DNA of 64,000 nucleotides from Selenomonas sp. TAMA-11512 (GTDB taxonomy: Bacteria; Bacillota; Negativicutes; Selenomonadales; Selenomonadaceae). The DNA lies in contig NZ_AP029018.1 of the NCBI RefSeq assembly GCF_037076525.1, forward strand, positions 2,154,501 through 2,218,500, written 5' to 3'. A program made the translations under genes and the position numbers. The notes beneath the pieces are model-generated. The model did not search any database. It was not told the DNA's origin and saw nothing but the letters and a program-made list of their open reading frames with translations. Below are positions 41,595-55,418 of this stretch, in pieces (the first letter of the stretch is position 1; each line of letters begins with the position of its first letter).

Positions 41595-41737
41595 ACATTG
41601 TCCTCCGTCGCAGCCCGCTCCGAAACGCACGCGGGGGAAACGCCTCTCTTTTCGCCCGCAAAGGATTACATATGCTGTCACATGTGATATAATGTGCCAT
41701 AGGTATAGATTCTAATCAGGCAAAGAGAGGATATGTG

Positions 41738-42733
41738 ATGAATCGATTCAAGATCTCAAGGCGGGCCGTTTACGGGCTCCTCGTCTGCATACTTCTTGCG
41801 GCGGCAGCCTGCCGCACGGATAACGCATTCGTAAAAAATATGATCATCCATGTGGGTGATTCGAAGTTTACAGAGGATACCCTTGTACAGGAAGTCGTTG
41901 ACGATCCGGTTTTCGGAAGTTACGGGCGGCTCATCTTTCCCGTGGACAAAGACATTCCCGAGGGGACGCGCCTCAAGGATGCAAGCGCGCTCCTCCCCGG
42001 GTATAACTACGTAGATCCCGCGCGCACGGTGGATGTCGTCAACTATATGAAAAACGAAGTGACGCACGGCGGGACGATTTTCTTCCCCATTTACACAAGA
42101 TACGAGATGGAGCAGGAGCCCGAAAAAGAGAATGCCGGACTCTTTTTCTTTCGAGGCGAAGAGGGACGTGAGACGGCGATTGTATCCGCCGGAGGAGGTT
42201 TTTCCTACGTCGGAGCCATACACGACAGCTTTCCTCAGGCATTGGAGCTCAGCCGCAGAGGCATCAATGCGTTTGCTCTCATCTACCGTCCCGATGAAAA
42301 AAAGGGTACGGAGGACTTGGCGCGTGCAATTCACTACCTCTGCACCCACGCGGATGAGCTCGATATATCGATGGATGGCTACTCCCTTTGGGGAAGCTCC
42401 TCAGGCGCGAAACTGACAGCAGCCGTCGGGAACAGCGGAACCGGCATGTACGGTGAAGAAGATCATCCGCGCCCGTCCGCGCTCGTTCTCGAATATACGA
42501 ACATACAGGACATATCGGATAGAGAACCGCCGACGTATGCCGTCGTCGGCAGCGCCGATGACGTGACTCCCCCCGCCATCATGCAGAACCGCATCGATCG
42601 CATTCGCGAGCAGGGTACCCCTGCGGAAATCGAAGTGTTTCCCGGTCTTCTTCACGGCTTCGGCGCAGGCGACCGCACCGTCGCCGCCGGATGGATCGAC
42701 CGCTCCGTCCTGTTTTGGGAGGGGCAGCGCTAA
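41738..42733 (+). CDS. Alpha/beta-hydrolase lipoprotein
   Basis: A 331-residue protein with an N-terminal lipoprotein signal ending LLAAAAC (lipobox cysteine), so probably anchored on the periplasmic side. After a unique region of about 130 residues an alpha/beta-hydrolase (BD-FAE/esterase-like) fold follows. ETAIVSAGGGFSYVGAIHDS holds the oxyanion area, WGSSSGAKL the nucleophile elbow with serine, SADDVTPP the acid region, and FPGLLHGFGAGD the histidine. The ATG at 41738 follows AGAGAGGATATGTG. A decayed copy of its last 33 codons lies at 51130-51229. Confidence 0.85.
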   Translation: MNRFKISRRAVYGLLVCILLAAAACRTDNAFVKNMIIHVGDSKFTEDTLVQEVVDDPVFGSYGRLIFPVDKDIPEGTRLKDASALLPGYNYVDPARTVDVVNYMKNEVTHGGTIFFPIYTRYEMEQEPEKENAGLFFFRGEEGRETAIVSAGGGFSYVGAIHDSFPQALELSRRGINAFALIYRPDEKKGTEDLARAIHYLCTHADELDISMDGYSLWGSSSGAKLTAAVGNSGTGMYGEEDHPRPSALVLEYTNIQDISDREPPTYAVVGSADDVTPPAIMQNRIDRIREQGTPAEIEVFPGLLHGFGAGDRTVAAGWIDRSVLFWEGQR

Positions 42734-42940: not shown

Positions 42941-44839
42941 TCACTTCCCCAAATACCGCTCCGTCACGGCGAGGAAGGTTCGGTAATCGGGATTTGCCGT
43001 GATCTTCTCAAACCAGCCGCGGGCCTTAAAGAGCTTTGCAAAGTAGTCCCACAGTTGAAACGACTGCGGATTATTTTTTCCTATATGCAGCAGGATGACA
43101 AGCCGGACGGGATTTCTCTCCTCGTCCCAGACGATCGGCGATTTGGGAATCGCAACGGCGACAAAGGTATCGGACGATACGGCCTCTAGGGGATGCGCCA
43201 TCGCAATCCCCTTTGAAAATACCGTACTGCCGATGGCTTCCCTTGCGAGAACCGCTTCCGTAAGCCCCTCCACGTCATAGATCCCCGCCGCCGCACCGGA
43301 CAGGAGCGAGAGGCACGCTTCCTTATCCTCCGGCGCCTCGGTGAAGAAGAGCGATTCGTGAAAAATCCCCACCACATCTTCCGTCGTCTTGAAACCATCG
43401 ATGAGCATCTTGATGTTTTTCCGATCGTTTTCCGTCGGAAACAGGCTGATGTGCATGGCGAGCCCGCGCTCATAAAAGAGATTTTTCTCCGTCGTCAGGA
43501 AGATATCGTAATCATCCAGGAGCCTGTCATCGACTTCGCTCTCCTGCGCGAAGTCGAGCGTCGCAATATCGTCCTTAAACCACGTAAAGAGCACCGAGCG
43601 CAAAATCACGGTCATGCTTCGCTTTAAAGAGGACAGAACCAGCACGCGCCGCTGCACCTTCTTGGCGCGGATCTCCATGAGCGCGCCGTAGAAGTGCGCT
43701 GCAATCAGGGCAATCTCATCCTCAATGAGCGCCTCGCCATACTTCTCCCGCAGGAGGAAGGCAAAGTAGGAGGCTATCTCAAAGCCGAGCATGAACTCCT
43801 CTTTGATGGAGGAGAGCGCCTGGTTCTTGACCTGGTTGTGATAGCGCATGCGAATGACGAGCGGCACGCAATGGAGCGCCAACGCGATGCGCAGGTCGAT
43901 GTTGTTCGTAAAGTCAATGCCGTAGTGCTGCTTGATCTTCTGAAAAGCCGTATCGAGAAAGGCATCCATTTCACTCGTGATGATTTCATCCGACGCATAG
44001 ACCGCCTGCCCCATCAAAAAGAGCGCGAAGCTCCTGACCTCCGCATCGGTGATTCGCACAAAGAAGCGTGCACGCAGTTCGCCCATGACGACCGCGCTGA
44101 TGGAGACGAACCGCTCCTGCGGCTCCTCCCGCCCGAGCTCCGCATCCTGTATGTAAAAATGCTGCTGGACGCGGTGCAGGATGACAGCCAGCTGCAATAC
44201 GGCGTTATTGAAGTCCATGTCGGAGATCACATACTTATGCGACATAAAGGCATCGACAAGGACGCTGCGGAGGAAGGAAATCCTCTCTAAGTCAAGCACA
44301 TCCGCTTCTCTCACCACATCTCCCAAGAGGTGCGTAAGCGCCAGGGCATTTTGTGAAAGCGCCCGACGCTTTGCCGTCTCAGAGCCCCTGATCGAAATGC
44401 GTCCGTGTTTCCGTTCCAGTCGGAGGTCAAAGCGCGACAACTCCTTCTTTGCCTCTCTCATGTCAATCGCAAGCGAGGACGAGGAGATATGCAGCGCATC
44501 CTCCAGATCGTAGAGAGAAACATCCCGGAATTTCTCCAAGAGCATATAGATCATCAGTGTCACGCGATTTTCCATCGTGTCTCTCTCCGACACACGCCCC
44601 TTGTCCAACCAGTCGAGCATCTTCGACGCATCCGTGACCTCGATGTAGGTGCCCTTCCCGCGGTCTGCGTGGAATCGGGCGAATCCCTCTCCTTCCACCT
44701 CCCTGCGGATGGACTTGAGATCATCCTGCATCGTCCGCACGCTGACCTGATATTCTTTGGCAAGGGAAGTCGCCGTATAGTACCGGCCGCTGTTTTTACA
44801 CAGTACCTCTAAAATGTCTAACTGTCTTTGGTTCAGCAA
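42941..44839 (-). CDS. PRD-domain transcriptional regulator (MtlR/LicR-like) with IIA-like domain
   Basis: A 632-residue activator controlled by PTS phosphorylation. Two N-terminal HTH domains (about 1-60 and 85-160) precede PRD1 (about 185-290) and PRD2 (about 300-400, histidines in HCVPLVIRMRY and AAHFYGALME). A IIB-like segment follows (RVLVLSSLKRSMTV); it lacks the usual cysteine. The C-terminal EIIA-like domain has its likely phospho-histidine in KGIAMAHPLEAV. The start is a TTG at 44839, eight bases after a run of ten G. As the last gene of the PTS operon it probably regulates that operon and the divergent aldolase. Confidence 0.88.
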   Translation of the reverse strand: MLNQRQLDILEVLCKNSGRYYTATSLAKEYQVSVRTMQDDLKSIRREVEGEGFARFHADRGKGTYIEVTDASKMLDWLDKGRVSERDTMENRVTLMIYMLLEKFRDVSLYDLEDALHISSSSLAIDMREAKKELSRFDLRLERKHGRISIRGSETAKRRALSQNALALTHLLGDVVREADVLDLERISFLRSVLVDAFMSHKYVISDMDFNNAVLQLAVILHRVQQHFYIQDAELGREEPQERFVSISAVVMGELRARFFVRITDAEVRSFALFLMGQAVYASDEIITSEMDAFLDTAFQKIKQHYGIDFTNNIDLRIALALHCVPLVIRMRYHNQVKNQALSSIKEEFMLGFEIASYFAFLLREKYGEALIEDEIALIAAHFYGALMEIRAKKVQRRVLVLSSLKRSMTVILRSVLFTWFKDDIATLDFAQESEVDDRLLDDYDIFLTTEKNLFYERGLAMHISLFPTENDRKNIKMLIDGFKTTEDVVGIFHESLFFTEAPEDKEACLSLLSGAAAGIYDVEGLTEAVLAREAIGSTVFSKGIAMAHPLEAVSSDTFVAVAIPKSPIVWDEERNPVRLVILLHIGKNNPQSFQLWDYFAKLFKARGWFEKITANPDYRTFLAVTERYLGK

Positions 44840-44846
44840 GATGTCT

Positions 44847-44856
44847 CCCCCCCCCC
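44847..44856 (-). promoter_or_regulatory. G10 homopolymer at the ribosome site of the PRD regulator
   Basis: Ten consecutive G on the coding strand occupy the Shine-Dalgarno position, ending 7 bases before the TTG start (GGGGGAGACATC-TTG). Such tracts slip readily, which would alter the SD spacing and the frame of an upstream TTG. Confidence 0.6.
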
Positions 44857-44869
44857 GCGATACAAGTAC

Positions 44870-46333
44870 TTAATATGGACGCAGCGCATCATGCAGGCCC
44901 TTAAACAGGCGATACTTTTGGCGGTAGCGAGCGGCAATGACGGGACAGGGCGCGTACAGGCTCCTGTCTCCCCTTTCCTTCGTCTCTACCTCCAAAGGCT
45001 CGCCGACGCAGCACCTCGCCAGCCGCACGGCGCCGAGTACGGCATCCCCGCTGCTGCCTGTCCGCACCTCTGTCTCCAGGACGTTGGCGAGGATCTCCAG
45101 CCAAAGCGGATTCTTCGCGCCGCCTCCCGTGACGAGCAGCGGCAGGAGCTTGCTCTTCGGCACCTCCATCTCCTCAACGAGGCGCTTGACACCGAAGGCA
45201 ATCCCCTCAAATATGGAAATGAGCATATCACGGCGCCTCGTCTCGGCGCCCAGTCCGATAAACGCGGCGCGGAGGCCGGGTGCCTGATAAATGGTCTTAT
45301 CCCCCATCAAATAAGGATAGAAGAGAAGCCTTCCCTCTCCCAGCTTGGAAGCATCAAACCCTGACAGCTCCTCATCAAACGACGCACCTCCCAATATTTC
45401 CTTCATCCACCAGTCGATCGTATTTCCGACCGATTGCAGGACGCCCTGCACCAGCATCCTCGGTGGCTCTCCGGAAATGGAAAAGGCGATGTGTTTTCCC
45501 TTTTTCTCAAAGTCCGCCTCTTCTCTTTCAAAAATCAATACACCTGATGTCCCAAGCGACAGGGCTGCGCGCCCCGTTCCCAGGATCCCCATGGAGAGCG
45601 CCGCTGCCGCATTATCCCCCGTGCCGACCGTGACAGGTATCGCCCCCAGACCATATTTTTCCCGGTAGGCTGGCAACAGTGTCCCTGCCGACACCCCCGA
45701 GGGGCGAATCGGCGGATAAATGTTCACGGAGAGTCCCAGCACGGCTCGCACCTCCTCCGACCACCTCTCTCGGCTGTAATCATAAAGAGACGAAGTGGAT
45801 GCATCGCAATAATCGGTAGATATTTCCCCCGTCAGTGCGTAGACTATATAGTCCGGACCGATCAAGAAATGCGCCAGCCGTTCAAAGTGGAACGGTTCCT
45901 CCTCCTTGAGCCAATAGAGGTTCATGGCAGGACTGCCTGTAGAAATCATACCATAAATGCCCGCCGGTGTCGGCGTCTCAGCGATTTTTTTTCTGACCTC
46001 CGCCACCATGTCCCTCGTGCGGACATCATTCCATAGGATGGCGGGTCGGATGCTCTCGCCGTCCCGATCCAGAAATACCGTCGTATGCATCTGTCCCGTG
46101 ACGCCGATGGCGGCGACACTTGCACGCTCTTCCGGAGAACCGCCGGCGAGGAGCTCAGAGAGCCCCTCCTCCAAAGTCTTTTGCCATACGCTTGGCGCAA
46201 TCTCATGATACTCCGTCTCCGGCACGGCATAGCGGTAAGTTTTTGAGCATTCGTTTTTTATCTCGCCCGCAGCATCCGCCCACAAGAGCTTCAAAGACGA
46301 AGTGCCTAGGTCAAGACCGATGTAGCTTTTCAT
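44870..46333 (-). CDS. FGGY-family carbohydrate kinase (xylulokinase-like)
   Basis: A 487-residue sugar kinase. IGLDLGTSSLKLLWAD is the phosphate-1 motif, IGVTGQMHTTVFLD and RPAILWNDVRTRDM the sugar-binding region, and VTVGTGDNAAAALSMG and LSLGTSGVLIF the FGGY second-domain motifs; VTGGGAKNPLWLEILANV follows. The pattern is closest to xylulokinases, so a ketopentose is the likely substrate. Its ATG overlaps the dehydrogenase TGA, showing coupling. A kinase beside a PTS is unusual because the PTS already phosphorylates its cargo. Confidence 0.85.
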   Translation of the reverse strand: MKSYIGLDLGTSSLKLLWADAAGEIKNECSKTYRYAVPETEYHEIAPSVWQKTLEEGLSELLAGGSPEERASVAAIGVTGQMHTTVFLDRDGESIRPAILWNDVRTRDMVAEVRKKIAETPTPAGIYGMISTGSPAMNLYWLKEEEPFHFERLAHFLIGPDYIVYALTGEISTDYCDASTSSLYDYSRERWSEEVRAVLGLSVNIYPPIRPSGVSAGTLLPAYREKYGLGAIPVTVGTGDNAAAALSMGILGTGRAALSLGTSGVLIFEREEADFEKKGKHIAFSISGEPPRMLVQGVLQSVGNTIDWWMKEILGGASFDEELSGFDASKLGEGRLLFYPYLMGDKTIYQAPGLRAAFIGLGAETRRRDMLISIFEGIAFGVKRLVEEMEVPKSKLLPLLVTGGGAKNPLWLEILANVLETEVRTGSSGDAVLGAVRLARCCVGEPLEVETKERGDRSLYAPCPVIAARYRQKYRLFKGLHDALRPY

Positions 46334-47382
46334 CCTGCATCTCCGAAATCCAAGAGCACCTTGTATGTGTCCGGACGCATCGCGCACGCCATCGCATCGC
46401 CGAAGTCCCTGTAGCTGTAGACCGCTTCGATGAGCGACGTCGGATCGATGATCCTCTTGGACAGCAACATCACCGACTCATGGTAGGCGCGAATCGTCGG
46501 GCTGACAGCACCTGTGATGTTGACCTGATGCGAATGGACACGTCCGAGATCTACAGGCACAGGTGTATTCGGGTGAATGGAGGAAAACATCACGACCGTG
46601 CCGCCGGGTGCCGTCATGGCGATCGCCTGTTCGGCAATCGCCGGAGCCGCCGTCGTATTATAGACGATGTCCGCGCCACGCCCGCTCGTGAGAGACGCAA
46701 CCTGCGCTTGCACATCCTCGCTGCCGGGGTCAAATGCAAAGGCTGCGCCGAGTCTCAGTGCCTTTTCCCTGCGCTCTGCCAGAGGCTCCGAGAGGATAAC
46801 GCGGGCTCCCCTGACCCTCGCTACCATCACATGGAGCAACCCCATTGTACCGCCGCCGATGACGAGAGCGTCGTCCCCCATGCGGAGAGGCGTTCGGTTG
46901 ACACTGTTGACGACGCACGCCAAGGGCTCGGTAAACGCAATTGTCTTGAAATCCGTTTCCTCGGGATAGATGAAGAGATCCTCCACTTTAGCAATCACAT
47001 ACTGTGCAAATCCCTTGTAGCCGGAGACAGCTCCCGGATTTTGGAATGTCTTGTTCGTCGGCAGCGTTTCGCAGATATTCTCCTCGCCGCGCTTGCATAA
47101 GTAGCAAGACTTGCAGTTATCTATGATATAGGCGACGGCCTTCTGGCCAGCCCTGTACCGACTGCTGTCGATGCCCTCACCGAGCTTCTCAATCGTACCG
47201 CCGTATTCATGTCCGCCGATGCGAGGATAGGTGTAGCTGCACTCACCCTTGAAGTCGCGGATATCGTTCGTGCAGATGCCGGACATCTCGATCCTGAGGC
47301 GAACCTCTCCGGGCCCCGGCTCCGGTGTCGGCAGATCGGCAATTGAAAAATCCCCTGGGCTGTTTAACAGAACTGCTTTCAT
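46330..47382 (-). CDS. Zinc-dependent medium-chain polyol dehydrogenase
   Basis: A 350-residue MDR-family dehydrogenase. The catalytic zinc site includes GICTNDIRD and GGHEYGG; the structural zinc site is CKSCYLCKRGEENIC; the Rossmann fold has VIGGGTMGLLHVMVAR. It resembles sorbitol and galactitol-1-phosphate dehydrogenases, so it probably oxidises the polyol or polyol phosphate taken up by the adjacent PTS. The start at 47382 is eight bases after AAGGGG; the ATG at 47391 is too close. It lies 12 bp from the IID gene. Confidence 0.87.
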   Translation of the reverse strand: MKAVLLNSPGDFSIADLPTPEPGPGEVRLRIEMSGICTNDIRDFKGECSYTYPRIGGHEYGGTIEKLGEGIDSSRYRAGQKAVAYIIDNCKSCYLCKRGEENICETLPTNKTFQNPGAVSGYKGFAQYVIAKVEDLFIYPEETDFKTIAFTEPLACVVNSVNRTPLRMGDDALVIGGGTMGLLHVMVARVRGARVILSEPLAERREKALRLGAAFAFDPGSEDVQAQVASLTSGRGADIVYNTTAAPAIAEQAIAMTAPGGTVVMFSSIHPNTPVPVDLGRVHSHQVNITGAVSPTIRAYHESVMLLSKRIIDPTSLIEAVYSYRDFGDAMACAMRPDTYKVLLDFGDAG

Positions 47383-47394
47383 TTCATCCACCCC

Positions 47395-48246
47395 TTAATA
47401 GGTTAGAATTCCTAGGAAACCGCACACGATCGACAGAGCGATAATGAGACCAATGATACGGATGCTGGTCCAGCGATTTTTCAACAGCCAGAAAATCCCC
47501 ATCGTAACCCCCAGAGGAAGGATATTCGGCATGACGTGATCGAGAAAGTCCTTTTGGATACTGAAGACCTGCGTCTCATTGACGATCTCGATGCCGCAGC
47601 TGACCTTGACATAGTTGACAATCAGGCCGCCCATGACCATGCATCCCATGACCGAAGCGCCTTTTAAAACCTTCTTCAAGGTGCCCTTTTCGATGAAGTC
47701 CATGATGGCATTCGCGCCCGCCCGGTAGCCGAACATGAAATTCGCATAGGAGAGGCTGTAAGCGGCAGTGACAATCGTGACGAAGTAGATGACGGCACCC
47801 CAGATATTGCCGGAGCCTGCGGTCGAGATATCAATGCATATGGCGAGGAGAATCGGGATGACCACACCCTGCCAGATGGTATCGCCAAGACCCGCGAGAG
47901 GACCCATGAGCGATGTCTTGATGTTCGTGATAAAGCTGTCGGGGATGTCTTCTCCCTTTGCCTTTTCTTCCTCCATGGCGATGATCATGCCGATGATACA
48001 GGCACCGAATTCGATATGGACATTGAAGAACTCGATCTCTCGCTTCATCAAAGCCTTGGCGGCCTCCGGATTGTGCTTGTAGAGACACTTGACGATGGGG
48101 ACGAAGACGTGCGCGACGACCTGTCCCATCATGCGCTCGTAGTTGTAGCAAGTCTGCGGGAACGTCTCCCAGATAAACCATGCCTTGCGGAGAGCTGATT
48201 TCGTGACCAGCTTTTCATCCTTTGCGATTGCGTCAGTCGTCATCAT
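47395..48246 (-). CDS. PTS mannose-family component IID
   Basis: A 283-residue membrane protein. FIWETFPQTCYNYERMMGQ and AFVMGLTAALEE-like IID core (here FGACIIGMIIAMEEEKAKGE), then SFITNIKTSLMGPLAGLGDT, are IID hallmarks; two or three membrane helices are near the C-terminus. IIC and IID form the translocation channel. The start at 48246 is six bases after AGAGGAGG; ATGs at 48252 and 48243 flank it. The start lies inside the last codons of IIC. Confidence 0.93.
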   Translation of the reverse strand: MMTTDAIAKDEKLVTKSALRKAWFIWETFPQTCYNYERMMGQVVAHVFVPIVKCLYKHNPEAAKALMKREIEFFNVHIEFGACIIGMIIAMEEEKAKGEDIPDSFITNIKTSLMGPLAGLGDTIWQGVVIPILLAICIDISTAGSGNIWGAVIYFVTIVTAAYSLSYANFMFGYRAGANAIMDFIEKGTLKKVLKGASVMGCMVMGGLIVNYVKVSCGIEIVNETQVFSIQKDFLDHVMPNILPLGVTMGIFWLLKNRWTSIRIIGLIIALSIVCGFLGILTY

Positions 48247-49018
48247 CGTCATCCTCCTCTGCAGCTGTTGTTACGGCTTCCATCGAGCTCGTGACCTGCA
48301 CGTAGATAATAGCGGTTAAGAGTGCGATCACGCCTAGGGTTAAGAGCGACAGGCCGGAGTAAACGGCTAGGATAAAGCCCAGGAACAAAAACACACGAGC
48401 CTCTCCCTTGTAGATGTACATGAGCGTGATGGCGATGCCGAGCGCCGGCATGATGCCGCCGATGACCTGGAAAATGGTGAGCGTCGTGCCCGAGAGCAGA
48501 TCGATAAATCCTTGGATGTACGCGGCTCCGAAATAAGCTGCCAGAGAGCAGGGAAGCACCGTCATGCAGAACGCCATCATCTGGGGATAGAGCACATTGG
48601 CACGCCAAATCTTATCATATTCTTCCCTCTCAATGTAGCGATCCGCCATGTGGACGAAGATGGAATCGAGGGTCATGCGGCCATACCATACGATGGTGCC
48701 AAGGACGCCGATGGGGACGGCGATGGCAAGAGCCGTCGCCGCATCCAGTCCGCCGGCGATGGCATACGTCGTACCGAGGACGCCGGCGAGCCCCATATCC
48801 GCCGGCATCGAACCGCCCGCAGACATAAAGCCGAGGTAAACGAGATTGATTGTACCGCCGACGACAGCTCCCTGCACAGGGTCGCCGAGAATGATGCCCG
48901 CAACAAGGCCGCAGACAAGCGGACGCTGCAGCGACCAGAGCCCGACAAAGGGGAGGTTACCAACAGCAAGCCAGTAAGTGATGCCGAGCAGGACGGCTTG
49001 GAAAACGGAAATATCCAT
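48233..49018 (-). CDS. PTS mannose-family component IIC
   Basis: A 261-residue polytopic protein with seven or eight hydrophobic segments. It starts MDISVFQAVLLGITYWLAVG; GLWSLQRPLVCGLVAGIILG and GTINLVYLGFMSAGGSMPAD are IIC signatures. The C-terminus is a run of acidic residues (AAEEDDDDDD) encoded by the DNA that also holds the IID ribosome site and start codons, an example of dense overlap. Confidence 0.93.
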   Translation of the reverse strand: MDISVFQAVLLGITYWLAVGNLPFVGLWSLQRPLVCGLVAGIILGDPVQGAVVGGTINLVYLGFMSAGGSMPADMGLAGVLGTTYAIAGGLDAATALAIAVPIGVLGTIVWYGRMTLDSIFVHMADRYIEREEYDKIWRANVLYPQMMAFCMTVLPCSLAAYFGAAYIQGFIDLLSGTTLTIFQVIGGIMPALGIAITLMYIYKGEARVFLFLGFILAVYSGLSLLTLGVIALLTAIIYVQVTSSMEAVTTAAEEDDDDDD

Positions 49019-49035
49019 GGATGTTCGCTCCTTTC

Positions 49036-49512
49036 TTAAACGGCAGTCATAGCTTCGATGATTTGCTGTTCAGGCACCAGTTGATAATAAACGCGCACGC
49101 CCCTCGCATCGAGACGCTTGATCGCCTCTATCTCCTCCTCGTCGCAGGCGACATTCTTGATGAATGTTCTGCGTGCGTCGCGAAGCCCCATACCGCCGAG
49201 GTTGACCTCCTTGAGCCCGATGCCGCCCTCAACGAGCCTGAGGAATGTGATCGGCGTCTTTGTTAGGATCATCATGCGCTCATCCTTCTTCGGATCGCCC
49301 TTGAGCTTCTCGACCGCCGTCGCAACGCTCCAGACAAAGCACTTGACGCCCTCCGGCGCAAGCCCCTTGATCACGCGCGTGTTGAACGCGTCCGCTGCGA
49401 CCCCGTCATCGACAACGGCAATGCGATTGACCGAGAGCGTCGGCGTCCAGACCGATACGACCTCGCCATGGATGAGCCGATCATCGACTCTTGCCAATAC
49501 CACGTTTCTCAT
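49036..49512 (-). CDS. PTS mannose-family component IIB
   Basis: A 158-residue cytoplasmic IIB. VLARVDDRLIHGEVVSVW carries the phospho-histidine at about residue 15, and KECNLGGM-type motif (here KEVNLGGMGLRDARR) follows. It accepts phosphate from IIA and passes it to the sugar in the IIC/IID channel. The gene is 17 bp upstream of IIC. Confidence 0.94.
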   Translation of the reverse strand: MRNVVLARVDDRLIHGEVVSVWTPTLSVNRIAVVDDGVAADAFNTRVIKGLAPEGVKCFVWSVATAVEKLKGDPKKDERMMILTKTPITFLRLVEGGIGLKEVNLGGMGLRDARRTFIKNVACDEEEIEAIKRLDARGVRVYYQLVPEQQIIEAMTAV

Positions 49513-49515
49513 GAT

Positions 49516-49938
49516 TCAGTCCTCCTCTGCACCGTCTGCTGCTTCCAGCATTCTTCTTACGTCTTTAATCGTACCGGCAGCCTTTGCCATCGCATCCTCG
49601 CACAGCTCCGCGGCAGTCTTTCCGCTCATGCGGCCGACCAGCATGACGACGAGGAGCGGCAGATTGATCCCGGTTATATGGTAGAAATCGAAATGCTCCG
49701 TGAGCTCCACCGCCACATTGAACGGCGTCCCGTGGAAGAGATCGGAAAGGACGATGATCTCATCTCCCTCCGCCCGGCTCTCGAGCTCCTTCCTTATATT
49801 CTCCAGCAAGACGCTTCGATCATCCTCCGGCTGCAGCCCGTAGGCGACGAGCCCCTCCTGCCGGCCCGCAAGCATCTGTGCGCTGTGCACCATGCCGGCA
49901 GCCATATTGCCGTGAGAGACAACTACCATTTTGACCAT
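49516..49938 (-). CDS. PTS mannose-family component IIA
   Basis: A 140-residue IIA. VKMVVVSHGNMAAGMVHSAQ has the phospho-histidine at about residue 9, and VLSDLFHGTPFNVAV is the second conserved segment. The start at 49938 follows AAGGGAG. It is the first gene of the operon and lies opposite the aldolase gene across a 256-bp divergent promoter region. Confidence 0.94.
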   Translation of the reverse strand: MVKMVVVSHGNMAAGMVHSAQMLAGRQEGLVAYGLQPEDDRSVLLENIRKELESRAEGDEIIVLSDLFHGTPFNVAVELTEHFDFYHITGINLPLLVVMLVGRMSGKTAAELCEDAMAKAAGTIKDVRRMLEAADGAEED

Positions 49939-50034
49939 GCGCTTTCTCCCTTTCCTCGTTTTCCTTGTCCTGCGAACCTGTCGTTTGCATGGTTGTATCT
50001 TAGCACGAGATCGGTGGCTCGTTTTATGAACTTC

Positions 50035-50053
50035 TTGCATAAACTTTACGCAA
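50035..50053. promoter_or_regulatory. Candidate operator: 19-bp inverted repeat in the divergent PTS/aldolase promoter region
   Basis: TTGCATAAACTTTACGCAA is a 9-1-9 inverted repeat with one mismatch. Its right half recurs as a direct copy, CTTTACGCAA, at 50088-50097, 44 bp away. A TATACT -10-like hexamer for the aldolase gene is at 50130. Confidence 0.5.
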
Positions 50054-50194
50054 TTTTCTAATAAAATTGAAAAGATATGTACAGCATCTTTACGCAACAA
50101 GTCAATAGCATGCATTCCTCCCTTTTCTTTATACTGATAGACAGCATCGGGGCAACGCCCCATCTCTCTTCTATAGCAAAGGAGCGAAGCATCT

Positions 50195-51028
50195 ATGAAA
50201 ATTGTCAACGGCTTTGACCTGTTCAGACACGCAAGGGAAAAAGGCTGCATCCTGCCGGCCTTCAACACGACGAACCTCGAAATGACCTACGGTATCGTAC
50301 AGGGTCTGCAGAACGCAGCGATGCCCGGCATGGTACAGATCTCAACCAACAATCTTCGCCTCTCCGATCCGGACACCATTGTCTACCTGATGAAGAAGGC
50401 GCTCTACAAAAAAGACGTCCCCGTCGCTCTCCACCTCGACCACGGCAAGAGCTATGAGAATGCCTGTGAATGCGTCGATGCAGGCTTTACCTCCATCATG
50501 ATCGACGCCTCTCACCTTCCTTTTGAAGAGAATGTCACCACGGTCCGCAAGACCGTCGAATACTGCCATTTCTACGGCGTTCCCGTCGAGGCGGAACTCG
50601 GCTGCATCGGAGGCAAAGAAGACGACATCCTAAACGAAGCCGATGCCAAAACGGATCCGGATATGGTACGGGACTTCGTTGCGCGTACAGGCTGCGATAT
50701 CCTCGCCGTTGCTGTCGGCAACGTCCACGGGCTCGACGCTGTGCCCCATATCGACCTTCCCCTCTTAGAGCAGATTTCCAAGATTTCACCCGTCCCGCTT
50801 GTCCTTCATGGAGACTCAGGCATCCCCTTTGAAATCATTCGTGAAGCCCGCAGGCACAACCTCATCAAGATCAACTACGGCGCCGATCTCCGCCGCGCCT
50901 TCGTCGCCTCCTTCGGCGAGCCTTACAAAAATCTAAAAAACGCCACGGATGTCATCAGCTACAGTCTCGCCGGCATCGCCGCTGTCGCCGAAAAGACGGA
51001 ATTCCTTGTCAAGTCCATCAACGAATAG
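50195..51028 (+). CDS. Class II ketose-bisphosphate aldolase
   Basis: A 277-residue zinc aldolase of the FbaA/GatY/KbaY family, which splits fructose- or tagatose-1,6-bisphosphate into triose phosphates. GCILPAFNTTNLEMTYGIV, ALHLDHGKSYENACECVD with zinc/catalytic residues, VEAELGCIGGKEDD and LVLHGDSGIPFEIIREA are visible, in the right order. The start follows AAAGGAGCG. It is divergent from the PTS operon, suggesting it degrades the sugar phosphate made there; fructose versus tagatose specificity is not readable. Confidence 0.9.
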   Translation: MKIVNGFDLFRHAREKGCILPAFNTTNLEMTYGIVQGLQNAAMPGMVQISTNNLRLSDPDTIVYLMKKALYKKDVPVALHLDHGKSYENACECVDAGFTSIMIDASHLPFEENVTTVRKTVEYCHFYGVPVEAELGCIGGKEDDILNEADAKTDPDMVRDFVARTGCDILAVAVGNVHGLDAVPHIDLPLLEQISKISPVPLVLHGDSGIPFEIIREARRHNLIKINYGADLRRAFVASFGEPYKNLKNATDVISYSLAGIAAVAEKTEFLVKSINE

Positions 51029-51129
51029 CTTTCAAAACCATTTTCCCTGCACGTCGAATCGTCAAGCAAAGTGCAGTGCCCGCAAAGCGTCACGTCTGCA
51101 TGATTCATTTGCCATGAAAAATATAGAGC

Positions 51130-51229
51130 TTTGTTTGACGGCCTTCTTCACGGCTTCGGCACAGGCGATCACACCGTCGCCGCCGGATGGATCGACCGCG
51201 CCGTCCTCTTTTAGCAGGGTCAGCGCTGA
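51130..51229 (+). pseudogene. Decayed 3' fragment of a paralogue of the lipoprotein hydrolase
   Basis: The segment encodes GLLHGFGTGDHTVAAGWIDR, nearly identical to the end of the hydrolase at 41738-42733 (GLLHGFGAGDRTVAAGWIDR), but an in-frame TAG interrupts it before the matching GQR end. Nothing upstream resembles the rest of that gene. Confidence 0.8.
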
Positions 51230-51274
51230 TGCGCTCGCTGCCTTTTTATACGCTGAAACCATCGATTGCATAAT

Positions 51275-51320
51275 ATGAACGCAGGAGGCTTATACAGCTG
51301 TATAAGCCTCCTGCGTTCAT
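51275..51320. terminator. Perfect 46-bp palindrome between the hydrolase fragment and the DeoR gene
   Basis: The two 23-bp halves are exact inverted copies (ATGAACGCAGGAGGCTTATA and its complement). It sits at the DeoR stop codon and after the aldolase, so it may terminate both convergent transcripts; it has no long T tract. Confidence 0.55.
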
Positions 51321-52120
51321 TATTCTATGTGTTCGGCACAATCCGCATTATGCAAAGGCGGCACCTCGATGATATCTACTTGATCGGATAGACGCTTCTT
51401 GTCTTCAAATCGAATGTTTGAATCCGTTATCAAATGGTGGATGTTTTTCCATTTCGTATATTCTACCAATGCAGAAGCCTGCGTTTTTGCACTGTGCGCT
51501 AAAACGATTTTCGTTCGGGCACGCTCCAAAATCGCACGTTTTACATCCGCATCCGTAAAATCAATGGATGTCGGACCGTTGCAGTCTTGAAAGCCGCTTG
51601 TTCCCAGAAAAGCAATGTCCACGTGAATTTGGCGCAAAAAACCGGTCGCAGCGAATCCCTCCAATGCCATAGTGATGGGATTTAGTGTCCCGCCGCTCAT
51701 GTGAAGTTTGTTTTCGCTGGAAATCAGTACATTTGCAACACTGAGCGACGTGGTAAAAATCGTCAGTCCTTTTTTCAGATAAAGGAGCCTGGCCAACGAA
51801 GTGCACGTGCTTCCCGCATCGAGAAAAATGACCGTGTTTTCTCTGATAAACCGCATTGCATATTCTGCAATGGCGGCCTTTTCCGCACTTCCTTCAGCGG
51901 TGCGGTCTTCAAGAGGACGCTCTGCAAACTCCAAGGCAGAAAGCGCTCCTCCATGACTCTTTTTTACGATGCCTTCCCTGTCAAGATAGATTAAATCCTT
52001 TCGGATGGTCTCCGTGGATACGCCGAATGTTCGTGCGAGCTCTCCGGCTTTTATGCTTCCGTTTGCTATAATATGCTCCGCAATTCGATTTCTGCGTTCT
52101 GCCGTAATCATTTTTGCCAC
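51320..52120 (-). CDS. DeoR-family transcriptional regulator
   Basis: A 266-residue repressor-type protein. The DeoR HTH is MITAERRNRIAEHIIANGSI through FGVSTETIRKDLIYLDREG, ending with the KSHGGA signature. The sugar-phosphate sensor domain follows with FLDAGSTCTSLARLLYL. The start is likely the GTG at 52120, 11 bases after GGGAGG; ATG 52111 is possible, while the frame up to 52231 runs through a hairpin and is not used. It probably controls the adjacent PTS-isomerase-epimerase operon. Confidence 0.88.
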   Translation of the reverse strand: MAKMITAERRNRIAEHIIANGSIKAGELARTFGVSTETIRKDLIYLDREGIVKKSHGGALSALEFAERPLEDRTAEGSAEKAAIAEYAMRFIRENTVIFLDAGSTCTSLARLLYLKKGLTIFTTSLSVANVLISSENKLHMSGGTLNPITMALEGFAATGFLRQIHVDIAFLGTSGFQDCNGPTSIDFTDADVKRAILERARTKIVLAHSAKTQASALVEYTKWKNIHHLITDSNIRFEDKKRLSDQVDIIEVPPLHNADCAEHIE

Positions 52121-52165
52121 AGTGATTATCACCTCCCGTCCATTATAACAAATTGAATGAAGAAA

Positions 52166-52204
52166 CGCACGAGGGAATTCTATGCATCGGAATTCCCTCG
52201 TGCG
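52166..52204. terminator. Hairpin between the PTS IICB gene and the DeoR gene
   Basis: CGCACGAGGGAATTC pairs exactly with GAATTCCCTCGTGCG, followed by TTTTATC on the plus strand and by TTTCTTC on the minus strand. It separates the PTS gene's 3' end from deoR. Confidence 0.7.
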
Positions 52205-52291
52205 TTTTATCGATTCGGTTGCCGCAGTCATCTTTCCTACGGAAGCTGCCGCATAGTCTTTTCAATGGAATGACCGGTTATGGAATCTCTC

Positions 52292-53707
52292 TTATTCTTT
52301 ATATTGCTGTATGATGGTGTTGATCAACTCTTCCACAGCCGGGTCTTCAAGATAATTTTTTATCGTGATGATTTTTGCGTCCGGAAGTCCCTGTGCGGCA
52401 CGTTCCAGCAATTTCTCATGAATCACGATGACATCGGCTTCTGCAGGAACGCTTTCTATTGCAAAGTTCTCTACACGGATGGATATTCCCGCCTTTTCCA
52501 AACGCTTTCGAATTTTCGTTGCCCCCATGGCGCTGCTTCCCATACCGGCGTCACAGGCTACGACAACGAACTTATATTTTGTCTGCAGGTCAGCGGAATC
52601 CGTCTGCAACGCAGTTTGAAGAATGGCTTTTCCCTCCGCTTTCATGGCATCGGTCTGAGACATCGAGTCAAGAAGTGATGCATCGGATTCCTTTTTCGAA
52701 GTCTTGAGAATGATGGACGTAATGCAAAAGCTTACGGCGGCAGCAACTGCCACGCCGGACAGGACTCCGATAAAATTCCCTTTGGGTGTCAGGGCCAGGT
52801 AAGCAAAGATGGAGCCCGGACTGGGGCCCGCTACAAGCCCCGCATCAAAGAACTGAAACGTCATTATCCCGCACGCTGACCCGCCGATCATGGCAAGCAG
52901 CGTGAGCGGCTTCATCAAAACAAAGGGGAAGTACATTTCATGGATTCCGCCGAGAAAGTGTATGATGATAGCGCCGGGCGCCGTGGCTTTTGCCGTGCCT
53001 GTTCCAAACAGAGAATACGCCAGCAGCAGTCCCAGTCCCGCTCCGGGATTGGATGCCAGCATAAAGTAGATGGACTTCCCTGCCTCCAGTGCGGCCTGCA
53101 TCCCCAACGGATAGTAAACGCCCTGATCAATGACGTTGTTCAGGAACAAGACCTTTGCAGGCTCGTTCACCAACGCAAGAATAGGCAGTATGCCTGTACT
53201 CATAAGACCTTTGATCATCGCGCTGAGAACCCCGTTTGCCGACTGCACGACCGGGCCGATAAACGCATTGGCAAGCAAACAGAGAACGAAGCCCAATATG
53301 CCCAGTGAGAAGTTGTTGACAAGCATCTCGAAGCCCGTAGGAATGACATGCTGAATTTGTTTGTCAAATTTTTTAATGACCCATGCACTCAGCGGCCCCA
53401 TGATCATAGCGCCCAGGAACATAGGAATATCCGCGCCGACGATTAGACCGATTGTGCCCACCGTACCGGCAATACCGCCGCGCACATCGTAAACAAGCTT
53501 GCCTCCTGCGTAGGCGAGCAAAAGAGGCAGCAGCGTGCTGACCATCGGTCCGACCAATTTGGCAAACTGCTCGTTCGGAATCCAGCCTGTCGGGATAAAT
53601 AGGGCGGTAATGAATCCCCATGCAATAAAGGCTCCCATATTCGGAATGACCATTGCCGTCAGGAATCCGCCGAAAGCTTGAATTTTAGCGCGAACTTGCG
53701 AATTCAT
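52292..53707 (-). CDS. PTS mannitol-type IICB component (no IIA domain)
   Basis: A 471-residue fusion. The IIC domain (about 1-340) has the motif GGIHEMYFPFVLMKP and the N-terminal KIQAFGGFLTAMVIPNMGAF typical of MtlA. The IIB domain (about 375-471) has the phospho-cysteine in VVACDAGMGSSAMGATKIRKR. The IIA part found in full-length MtlA is missing and no separate mannitol-type IIA gene is nearby, so phosphate must come from a IIA elsewhere. Neighbouring isomerase and epimerase genes argue against plain mannitol use. Confidence 0.9.
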   Translation of the reverse strand: MNSQVRAKIQAFGGFLTAMVIPNMGAFIAWGFITALFIPTGWIPNEQFAKLVGPMVSTLLPLLLAYAGGKLVYDVRGGIAGTVGTIGLIVGADIPMFLGAMIMGPLSAWVIKKFDKQIQHVIPTGFEMLVNNFSLGILGFVLCLLANAFIGPVVQSANGVLSAMIKGLMSTGILPILALVNEPAKVLFLNNVIDQGVYYPLGMQAALEAGKSIYFMLASNPGAGLGLLLAYSLFGTGTAKATAPGAIIIHFLGGIHEMYFPFVLMKPLTLLAMIGGSACGIMTFQFFDAGLVAGPSPGSIFAYLALTPKGNFIGVLSGVAVAAAVSFCITSIILKTSKKESDASLLDSMSQTDAMKAEGKAILQTALQTDSADLQTKYKFVVVACDAGMGSSAMGATKIRKRLEKAGISIRVENFAIESVPAEADVIVIHEKLLERAAQGLPDAKIITIKNYLEDPAVEELINTIIQQYKE

Positions 53708-53755
53708 TTCATTTTCCTCCTTTAAATGGCAGTTGCTTTCACTTCTTACTGCAAA

Positions 53756-54313
53756 TTATTCCAAGTTTGCATGGTATTGCCACAGGCTTTTCAAATCAAT
53801 CCCGCGATTGCGCTGAATCATGCAGGCAACGCTGTCTCCCCACAAGAGAAGGCTTTGCTCAAACAAGCTGGACATAGGCTGAACAGATTTTATTTCGTCC
53901 TCCAGGTATAGCTTGGTCTGAACGGGAATGCGTATCATCAGATCTGTAATCGGCGCAATCGTGCTTTGCGGATTTGAGCCGATATGAACAATGATGCCTC
54001 CCAGAGATTTTGCTTTTTGAGCAATTGCGACAGGGAAAAGTGATTCTCCGCTTCCCGATCCCACAATAAGCAAATCCCCCCTTTTCATGGCGGGCTCGTT
54101 CACGGCCCCCACCATATAAATATTGATGCCGAAATGACGCATTCGCTTTGCAAATGCTTCCAGCTCCATTTTGACGCGCCCGACGCCGATGCAGAACACG
54201 GTATCCGCGGACAACAAGAGCTGAATAAACTGCTCCGTTTTTTCACTGCTGATTTTCTCCAGGCTTTCTGCACACTCGCGCAGAACAATCTTCGACGCTT
54301 CCTGATAATCCAT
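53756..54313 (-). CDS. SIS-domain sugar-phosphate isomerase (6-phospho-3-hexuloisomerase-like)
   Basis: A 185-residue single SIS-domain protein. FCIGVGRVKMELEAFAKRMRH, DLLIVGSGSGESLFPV and GGIIVHIGSNPQSTIA resemble HxlB/PHI, which interconverts 3-hexulose-6-phosphate and fructose-6-phosphate. No hexulose-phosphate synthase is adjacent, so formaldehyde fixation is unlikely; a role in converting the PTS-imported sugar phosphate is more plausible. It is 16 bp from the epimerase gene. Confidence 0.82.
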   Translation of the reverse strand: MDYQEASKIVLRECAESLEKISSEKTEQFIQLLLSADTVFCIGVGRVKMELEAFAKRMRHFGINIYMVGAVNEPAMKRGDLLIVGSGSGESLFPVAIAQKAKSLGGIIVHIGSNPQSTIAPITDLMIRIPVQTKLYLEDEIKSVQPMSSLFEQSLLLWGDSVACMIQRNRGIDLKSLWQYHANLE

Positions 54314-54329
54314 AGGATCCCCCTTTTGC

Positions 54330-55016
54330 TCAAATTGAGTCGATTAAATCATGTAAAGCCGCCACATTTTCCTGATACGAGTGACCTTGTCGGAAAATAC
54401 TGCTAGTACCGCCGACCAGAATCTCTGCTCCTGCCTTGACAAGCTGCGGAATAGTTTCAAATCCGACGCGTCCGTCCACAATAATTTTTGCATCGGGGTG
54501 ATTCCTGTCCAAAAAGTCGCGGCATGCTCGAACCTTTTTTTCCGCATATGAAACCATAGCTTCCGATTTTCCGCCTGCATAGCCCGGGTTGATGAGCATG
54601 AGCAGGACATAATCACAGGCCTGCGCAGCATACTCGATGGACTGCAGGGATGTCGCCGGATTGAGAGCGATACCTGCTCGTATACCTGCTTCCCGTATTT
54701 TTTGGAGCATTTTTTCAATATGCAGTTCCTTCTCTGCGTGGAATGTGATACTTGCAACATGCATCTTCACAAGCTCGTCGATAAAGTACTCGTTGAGATC
54801 CGTCATGATATGGACATCGAAATCCATATTTGTACGAGATTTCAATTGCTTCACCACATCAAGGCCGATTGGCATGCTGGGGCTGAAATGCGGATCAACA
54901 AGGTCGACATGAAGTGAATGAAGCCCTGCTTTTTCTAAGATGGACACCTCTCTTTCCAAATTGCATAAATCCGCACAAATCAGGGAAGGAGACAGAACGA
55001 TATTTGCAGGATTCAT
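54330..55016 (-). CDS. Ribulose-phosphate 3-epimerase family protein
   Basis: A 228-residue TIM-barrel enzyme. LSPSLICADLCNLEREV, HVDLVDPHFSPSMPIG, ITFHAEKEL and IIVDGRVGFETIPQLV carry the expected metal and catalytic His/Asp residues of Rpe. Since it sits with a hexose-type PTS and a SIS isomerase, it may act on a hexulose-6-phosphate (as AlsE does) rather than on ribulose-5-phosphate. It is first in the operon; its promoter lies in the very AT-rich stretch after 55016. Confidence 0.85.
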   Translation of the reverse strand: MNPANIVLSPSLICADLCNLEREVSILEKAGLHSLHVDLVDPHFSPSMPIGLDVVKQLKSRTNMDFDVHIMTDLNEYFIDELVKMHVASITFHAEKELHIEKMLQKIREAGIRAGIALNPATSLQSIEYAAQACDYVLLMLINPGYAGGKSEAMVSYAEKKVRACRDFLDRNHPDAKIIVDGRVGFETIPQLVKAGAEILVGGTSSIFRQGHSYQENVAALHDLIDSI

Positions 55017-55289
55017 CTTCTAGTCACAACCTTTCGCAATTTTTATATTGTGTCTTCTTTGTTTTATGTAATTATAGATTGTGAAAGCAAGTATGTCAAT
55101 ATATAAATTGTATTATTTTTTGATTTATAAGTTTTAACATTGTTATTTATTGCGATTTTGCATGGATTTTTAAACAGACAGTCTTTTAGTTCATTGACAA
55201 CAATACTTCTTCTTTACGGCCAGGTATAAGATGTGCTTTGAACAACTTATGAAGAAAACACGTATTTTGACTGCTGTCAAATGAGAAAA
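55017..55289. other. AT-rich gene-free stretch upstream of the epimerase operon
   Basis: Much more A/T-rich than the rest of the window, especially 55060-55180. It probably holds the promoter of the epimerase-isomerase-PTS operon. No convincing ORF; the 66-codon minus frame here runs through both terminator hairpins. Confidence 0.5.
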
Positions 55290-55337
55290 GAGGGCTTTGG
55301 CCGCATCGAATTTCCGATGCGGCCAAAGCCCTCTTTT
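55286..55337. terminator. Bidirectional terminator hairpin 1
   Basis: GAGGGCTTTGGCCGCATCG pairs exactly with CGATGCGGCCAAAGCCCTC, with A4 before and T5 after. Confidence 0.9.
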
Positions 55338-55375
55338 TATAGTCCGAACCGGACACGATAAACATGTACTGCGGC

Positions 55376-55418
55376 AAGAGGGTCACCTGCCCGATTAAGC
55401 AGGTGACCCTCTTGTTTT
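55376..55418. terminator. Terminator hairpin 2, 3' of the HAD phosphatase gene
   Basis: AAGAGGGTCACCTGC pairs exactly with GCAGGTGACCCTCTT, followed by GTTTTC on the plus strand. It lies 11-52 bp from the phosphatase stop codon. Confidence 0.8.

Follow-up and report, generated by a model that had tools for sequence, protein, structure and literature searches.

An SIS isomerase and divergent Rpe-family epimerase operon in Selenomonas sp. TAMA-11512, a candidate route for a rare hexose or hexitol

What does a sugar operon degrade when its epimerase resembles ribulose-phosphate 3-epimerase, its isomerase resembles an enzyme of the formaldehyde-linked ribulose monophosphate route, and its transporter resembles a mannitol permease? 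This question is raised by a locus of Selenomonas sp. TAMA-11512 in the stretch of 64,000 nucleotides analyzed here (the window), positions 2154501-2218500 of the single-contig 2.59-Mb genome. Its minus strand carries four genes, all intact and transcribed in the order RPE, SIS, IICB and DeoR, which confirms the set predicted by the first-pass annotation: a DeoR regulator, a phosphotransferase system (PTS) transporter without IIA, an SIS isomerase and an Rpe-like epimerase. We judge it somewhat better than an even chance that this is an accessory catabolic operon with its own repressor, in which PTS uptake and an optional oxidation are followed by isomerization and 3-epimerization to fructose 6-phosphate. 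The reading builds on the genes themselves, the promoter, a conserved operator-like repeat, catalytic residues, loop lengths, the two enzyme clades and the constant pairing of the two enzyme genes. The principal features are:

54330-55016, minus strand: RPE, an Rpe-family (PF00834) 3-epimerase of a divergent clade, RPE1
53756-54313, minus strand: SIS, an SIS-domain (PF01380) sugar-phosphate isomerase, HxlB-like, of a separate GVGRV clade
52292-53707, minus strand: IICB, with PTS_EIIC and PTS_IIB domains, MtlA subfamily, without a IIA domain
51320-52120, minus strand: DeoR-family regulator, GTG start at 52120 with a GGGAGG ribosome site just before it
55071-55099, minus strand: sigma-70 type promoter upstream of RPE, TTGACA-17-TATAAT, 12/12 consensus positions
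55036-55051, minus-strand reading: operator-like inverted repeat ACAAT-N6-ATTGC between the promoter and the RPE start, the proposed DeoR site

The epimerase and the isomerase

The epimerase belongs to the Rpe family, as first proposed, without being a canonical member of either the Rpe or the AlsE type. In the tree it falls into a clade apart from both (support 100/99), and its score against the Rpe model TIGR01163 (184.5 bits) is below the equivalog cut-off of 212.6. The metal ligands H36, D38, H69 and D181 are invariant, and the metal and acid/base ligands are kept; the roles of this tetrad and of the phosphate motif have been described (PMC5312968). RPE reads FSPS(M)P for the FVPN of Rpe and VDGR for its VDGG, and carries a three-residue insertion in the beta-6 loop. 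Its beta-8 loop, GTSSIF, has the length found in AlsE (GTSGLF), where Rpe reads GSAIF; it exceeds by one residue the loop of the E. coli Rpe and that of the separate Rpe of this genome. Such an extra beta-8 residue was reportedly linked by Chan et al. (Biochemistry, 2008) to a preference for hexulose over pentulose phosphates.

Alternatively, IICB might import D-arabitol, xylitol or ribitol, a dehydrogenase would convert the product to ribulose or xylulose 5-phosphate, and RPE would act as an accessory ribulose-phosphate 3-epimerase. A D-arabitol PTS with a phosphate dehydrogenase is known in Bacillus methanolicus (PMC6685057), relatives of the operon encode a polyol-phosphate dehydrogenase, the Rpe model gives RPE its top family-model score, and the solved structures that match RPE are mostly Rpe. 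We nevertheless regard such a pentitol route as unlikely: the Rpe score stays under the cut-off in a clade apart from Rpe, the beta-8 loop is longer and AlsE-like, the sister SIS of this genome has a true AlsE as its partner, the genome already encodes a separate Rpe, and the route leaves SIS without a role.

The isomerase passes the HxlB model TIGR03127 by a small margin (165.5 bits, cut-off 160), and its nearest solved structure is YckF. In the tree it sits in a separate clade of 24 rows on a long branch (100/100), apart from HxlB and YckF. Across this clade the GRSG of the first loop of HxlB is replaced by GRV[KML], which gives the GVGRV motif (GRVK in the window's SIS). The first description of SIS as like 6-phospho-3-hexuloisomerase (PHI) thus holds for the cut-off, which it just passes, and fails for the clade.

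The marginal HxlB score and the YckF match would fit a true PHI of the ribulose monophosphate (formaldehyde) route. SIS shares with that HxlA-HxlB system the fold, the SGSGE loop, E152 and H181; it differs in its replaced GRSG, its separate clade and its lack of a partner, as no gene for 3-hexulose-6-phosphate synthase (HPS) lies beside it. In three of five module-bearing genomes HxlA matches are at noise level only, and the best HxlA-like gene of the window's genome adjoins a different SIS that has the canonical GRSG motif. On this HxlA survey we rejected a formaldehyde role for SIS, which we find scarcely credible.

The pair in other genomes

We surveyed one genome per species with a hidden Markov model of the SIS protein, at thresholds that also admit a related type, SIS2. 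The class yielded members in 10 of 380 genomes, the phylum in 5 of 398. The loci in named organisms are from S. infelix, Propionispira arboris, P. raffinosivorans, Pectinatus haikarae, P. frisingensis and Propionispora; others are in metagenome-assembled genomes (MAGs) of Bacilli, Lachnospiraceae, Erysipelotrichia, Sphaerochaetaceae, Synergistaceae and Planctomycetota. The module is patchy and its location varies by genus, in agreement with the accessory nature proposed in the first pass. Wherever both genes were located, at 21 loci, SIS is the gene immediately downstream of RPE1.

The genes around this constant pair vary. The window, S. infelix and Propionispira have IICB alone with the pair, and in S. 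infelix the module stands beside mtlR-mtlA-mtlD. Those of Pectinatus, Propionispora, Erysipelothrix and others have, besides IICB, a IIA and an MtlD-type enzyme. In a further arrangement (Bacilli MAG, G098) the pair is accompanied by an IICB of a different clade, a distant MtlD-like protein and an SDR of the sorbitol-6-phosphate type, and the Lachnospiraceae MAG has this SDR and IICB. This SDR type, together with the different IICB clade, occurs in two unrelated module copies (355 bits, cut-off 304). In Sphaerochaetaceae and Synergistaceae a PfkB kinase with ABC or TRAP genes surrounds the RPE1-SIS pair. With a polyol-phosphate dehydrogenase present in the fuller copies of relatives, a hexitol is no less likely a substrate than a hexose or hexulose.

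We tentatively suggest, at a little short of an even chance, that RPE1 and the GVGRV SIS are two new specificities that evolved as a pair. Together they would define a hexitol or rare-hexose route to fructose 6-phosphate that has so far gone undescribed. Its cassettes for uptake and oxidation would be interchangeable (an MtlA-type PTS and MtlD; another MtlA-type PTS and an SDR; a sugar kinase and ABC or TRAP uptake), and the route would be spread over Bacillota, Synergistota, Spirochaetota and Planctomycetota. As the first-pass annotation had remarked, no named pathway fits. In the literature we found no account of an operon with such an SIS and Rpe pair and an MtlA-type PTS, which is weak evidence as subscription papers were thinly covered.

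The same genome contains a related locus at 2494-2505 kb (L042 6424-16729) with SIS2, zinc dehydrogenases, a mannose-family PTS, a LevR-type activator and an AlsE-type epimerase. SIS2 is 50% identical to the window's SIS and belongs to the same clade. The epimerase meets the D-allulose 6-phosphate 3-epimerase equivalog (309.6 bits, cut-off 271) and is 50% identical to E. coli AlsE, and the locus is a candidate for a polyol pathway that forms allulose 6-phosphate. Loci of this type, also present in genomes G066, G081 and G206, resemble the module in their SIS clade, 3-epimerase, polyol dehydrogenases and PTS uptake, whereas their mannose-family PTS, true AlsE, zinc MDR dehydrogenases and LevR-type activator take the place of the module's MtlA-type IICB, RPE1 and DeoR.

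In the Pectinatus-group genome G206 (L105 6061-8250, L131) SIS and DeoR are intact, RPE and IIA persist as remnants, and IICB and MtlD are absent. The intact type-1 SIS lies right beside a type-2 locus that has AlsE and lacks SIS2. The simplest reading is that both SIS enzymes would perform the same reaction and that RPE1 may be dispensable when AlsE is present.

Several further gene contexts were observed. An RPE1-SIS pair lies in an apparent surface-polysaccharide locus (L084 5181-8558; KdsC-like HAD and nucleotidyltransferase-like genes, by eye), which suggests that the same pair may be used in sugar synthesis. In a Sedimentisphaerales MAG (L071 6064-9511) UroD/MtaA-like methyltransferase domains are next to or fused to RPE1, beside SIS, and a Lachnospiraceae MAG (L077 8603-9043) has, near SIS2, a short open reading frame that appears UroD-like by eye and has no Pfam hit. 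Genome G552 (L107 3182-8121) encodes two seemingly identical RPE1 genes that flank transaldolase- and transketolase-like genes and an SIS gene. Contig 51 of G066 (L132 47-9372) carries another polyol locus with several isomerases, in which a galactitol-type PTS is combined with RpiB, an SIS with the canonical GRSG and two different Rpe-family genes. SIS2-type genes accompany FGGY kinases and zinc dehydrogenases, with no Rpe-family partner, in L075-L079 and L108; a TIM-barrel-like protein, which might be the epimerase, is additionally encoded in L077 and L108.

Uptake, regulation and boundaries of the operon

The transporter was correctly recognized at first as a mannitol-type IICB without IIA. 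It passes the MtlA subfamily model TIGR00851 (474 bits, cut-off 468.4), and in the tree the IICBs of the modules group in a clade of their own (100/98), apart from the canonical MtlA pair of this genome and S. infelix (100/99) and 50-52% identical to canonical MtlA. At about 2147-2151 kb, the mannitol locus of the window's genome encodes an IICBA of 631 aa and an MtlD of 379 aa. A separate MtlA that scores higher than the module's IICB, in most cases with MtlD close by, is present in each of the ten module-bearing genomes checked, and we therefore conclude that the module is not the mannitol system.

A second uptake system for mannitol (or sorbitol), with SIS and RPE in an unrelated side reaction, would accord with the pass of the MtlA model, with the MtlD encoded in several module copies and with the position of the S. 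infelix module next to mtlA and mtlD. We consider it quite improbable, as mannitol use has no need of SIS or RPE, the IICB of the module falls into a clade of its own and a stronger MtlA is kept in every genome checked. Compared with the mannitol PTS (MtlA IICBA and MtlD), the module shares the subfamily of its IICB and, in relatives, an MtlD-type partner; it lacks the IIA domain, adds the SIS and RPE genes and has DeoR in place of an MtlR-type regulator.

We found no transport-type IIA among the surrounding genes of the window's operon. Modules without IIA also lack MtlD, and in the four such genomes checked (this one, two Propionispira and S. infelix) a long-frame MtlA with MtlD close by is encoded elsewhere. 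Borrowing from the mannitol locus is therefore the simplest account, and both IIA and MtlD are probably shared from there.

The DeoR protein contains a helix-turn-helix domain (PF08220, 49.8 bits) and a DeoRC sensor domain (PF00455, 145.4 bits), and is 59-64% identical among the modules compared. The first pass was right about its presence and gave it too long a frame, one that runs into a hairpin. Because a terminator-like hairpin (52164-52206) parts IICB from DeoR, and a TATAAT-like -10 element lies just upstream of the DeoR start, DeoR is probably a separate transcript.

The repeat [AG]CAA[TC]-N6-[AG]TTG[CT] stands just upstream of RPE in 7/7 aligned upstream regions, with a per-region shuffle probability of 0.002-0.0075 for a pattern picked after the sequences had been viewed; the G206 locus, which has lost RPE, is not among the seven. 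In its strict form the repeat has a single match in the 64-kb window, the one at 55036-55051. This placement between promoter and gene would fit repression by DeoR. No site that would indicate a shared DeoR operator at the mannitol locus was found within 2140-2156 kb.

The remaining features mark the ends of the unit:

55289-55334: strong bidirectional terminator, T-tailed on both strands, that parts the unit from a HAD gene
about 55376-55415: second tandem hairpin beside the HAD gene, T tail on the plus strand only
52164-52206: terminator-like hairpin with a weak T tail, between IICB and DeoR
51275-51320: strong hairpin at the DeoR end, terminator-like call on the plus strand
51132-51227, plus strand: decayed copy of the 3' end of an alpha/beta-hydrolase gene, outside the operon

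The two tandem terminators reported at one end of the block are thus present, on the promoter side. The decayed gene fragment said to begin the block also exists, past the DeoR end; it is not part of the operon. It is a 96-bp copy, on the opposite strand and with an in-frame stop, that is 88.5% identical to 42636-42731, the 3' end of the window's own alpha/beta-hydrolase (esterase) gene (41735-42733). We considered this fragment as a lost MtlD or IIA and rejected the idea on that match.

The adjoining region, 42941-51028, holds a second sugar or polyol PTS locus with a PRD regulator that has an EIIA_2 domain, an FGGY kinase, a zinc MDR dehydrogenase, mannose-family PTS IID, IIC, IIB and IIA, and a divergent class II aldolase (PRK07998-like, 366.8 bits against 364).

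Base composition was the ground on which the block had been called an AT-rich island. Its G+C content, 0.475, is indeed below that of its flanks (0.553 and 0.558), but island status was overstated, since 11% of 4.4-kb background windows are at or below 0.475 in 300 kb of stretches sampled across the genome (mean 0.524). The composition is thus not uniform with the flanks and still inside the normal range of the genome. At the gene level IICB and SIS are unremarkable, and RPE and DeoR lie close to the 10th percentile. The dip exists, but on a local scale, and tells little about whether import was recent: in most relatives, over a host range of 28-55%, the module is also somewhat lower in G+C than its surroundings, and low G+C is therefore no evidence of a recent arrival. 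As to origin rather than function, a recent horizontal gain from an AT-rich donor appears doubtful. The local dip, the patchy occurrence with another location in each genus and the close kin in a Bacilli MAG speak for it. Against it are the normal composition, the nearest kin that are partly of the same family (S. infelix) and a search, not exhaustive, in which no integrase, repeats or tRNA boundary was identified.

A predicted route to fructose 6-phosphate

Given the analyses presented above, we favor the catabolic operon described at the outset; its substrate, step order, reactions and borrowed IIA and MtlD are predictions. The MtlA-type IICB would import and phosphorylate a hexose or hexitol other than mannitol. 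It probably receives its phosphate from the IIA domain of MtlA, the mannitol transporter, whose gene lies 55 kb away. A hexitol phosphate would be oxidized to a ketohexose 6-phosphate by an MtlD-type dehydrogenase, which is encoded in the module in relatives and is probably the mannitol-locus enzyme here. SIS may then shift the carbonyl (aldose to 2-ketose, or 3-ketose to 2-ketose) to form D-allulose 6-phosphate or a close relative, and RPE would invert C3, as AlsE does, to yield fructose 6-phosphate. DeoR is predicted to repress the operon through the inverted repeat between promoter and RPE. Import as a 6-phosphate followed by isomerase and 3-epimerase was also the first proposal, and it remains the best-supported reading; its restriction to hexoses and hexuloses does not stand, with a hexitol equally likely or more so.

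For a hexose substrate, this scheme is the E. coli D-allose route, RpiB then AlsE (PMC8879981), with SIS in place of RpiB. Both pathways would use an isomerase and an Rpe-superfamily 3-epimerase to reach fructose 6-phosphate via D-allulose 6-phosphate, and the window's RPE has a beta-8 loop of AlsE length. The E. coli pathway (AlsBAC, AlsK, RpiB/AlsI, AlsE) differs in its ABC transporter and kinase, where the module has a PTS, and the module includes a dehydrogenase in its fuller copies and an epimerase that is 26% identical to AlsE and sub-equivalog.

Several points weigh against the proposed route. RPE scores 136.9 bits against the AlsE equivalog, below the cut-off of 271 and farther from that model than from Rpe, and its beta-8 loop length is ambiguous in six RPE1 relatives. 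Because the first loop of SIS has changed from GRSG to GRVK, the reaction borrowed from HxlB may not hold for it. The window's operon has neither dehydrogenase nor IIA, the repeat pattern was a post hoc choice, and the G206 replacement is one event only.

Overall, the module makes a good candidate for a so far undescribed variation on rare-sugar breakdown, more so than for a system of a new kind. The G206 case suggests that the isomerase is common to the module route and the AlsE route, which narrows the chemistry. RPE and SIS are two small, expressible enzymes that could add tools for the production or use of rare sugars such as allulose, allose, altrose and allitol. If the reading is true, current annotation hides a catabolic route, and the names ribulose-phosphate 3-epimerase, 6-phospho-3-hexuloisomerase and mannitol PTS would all mislead.

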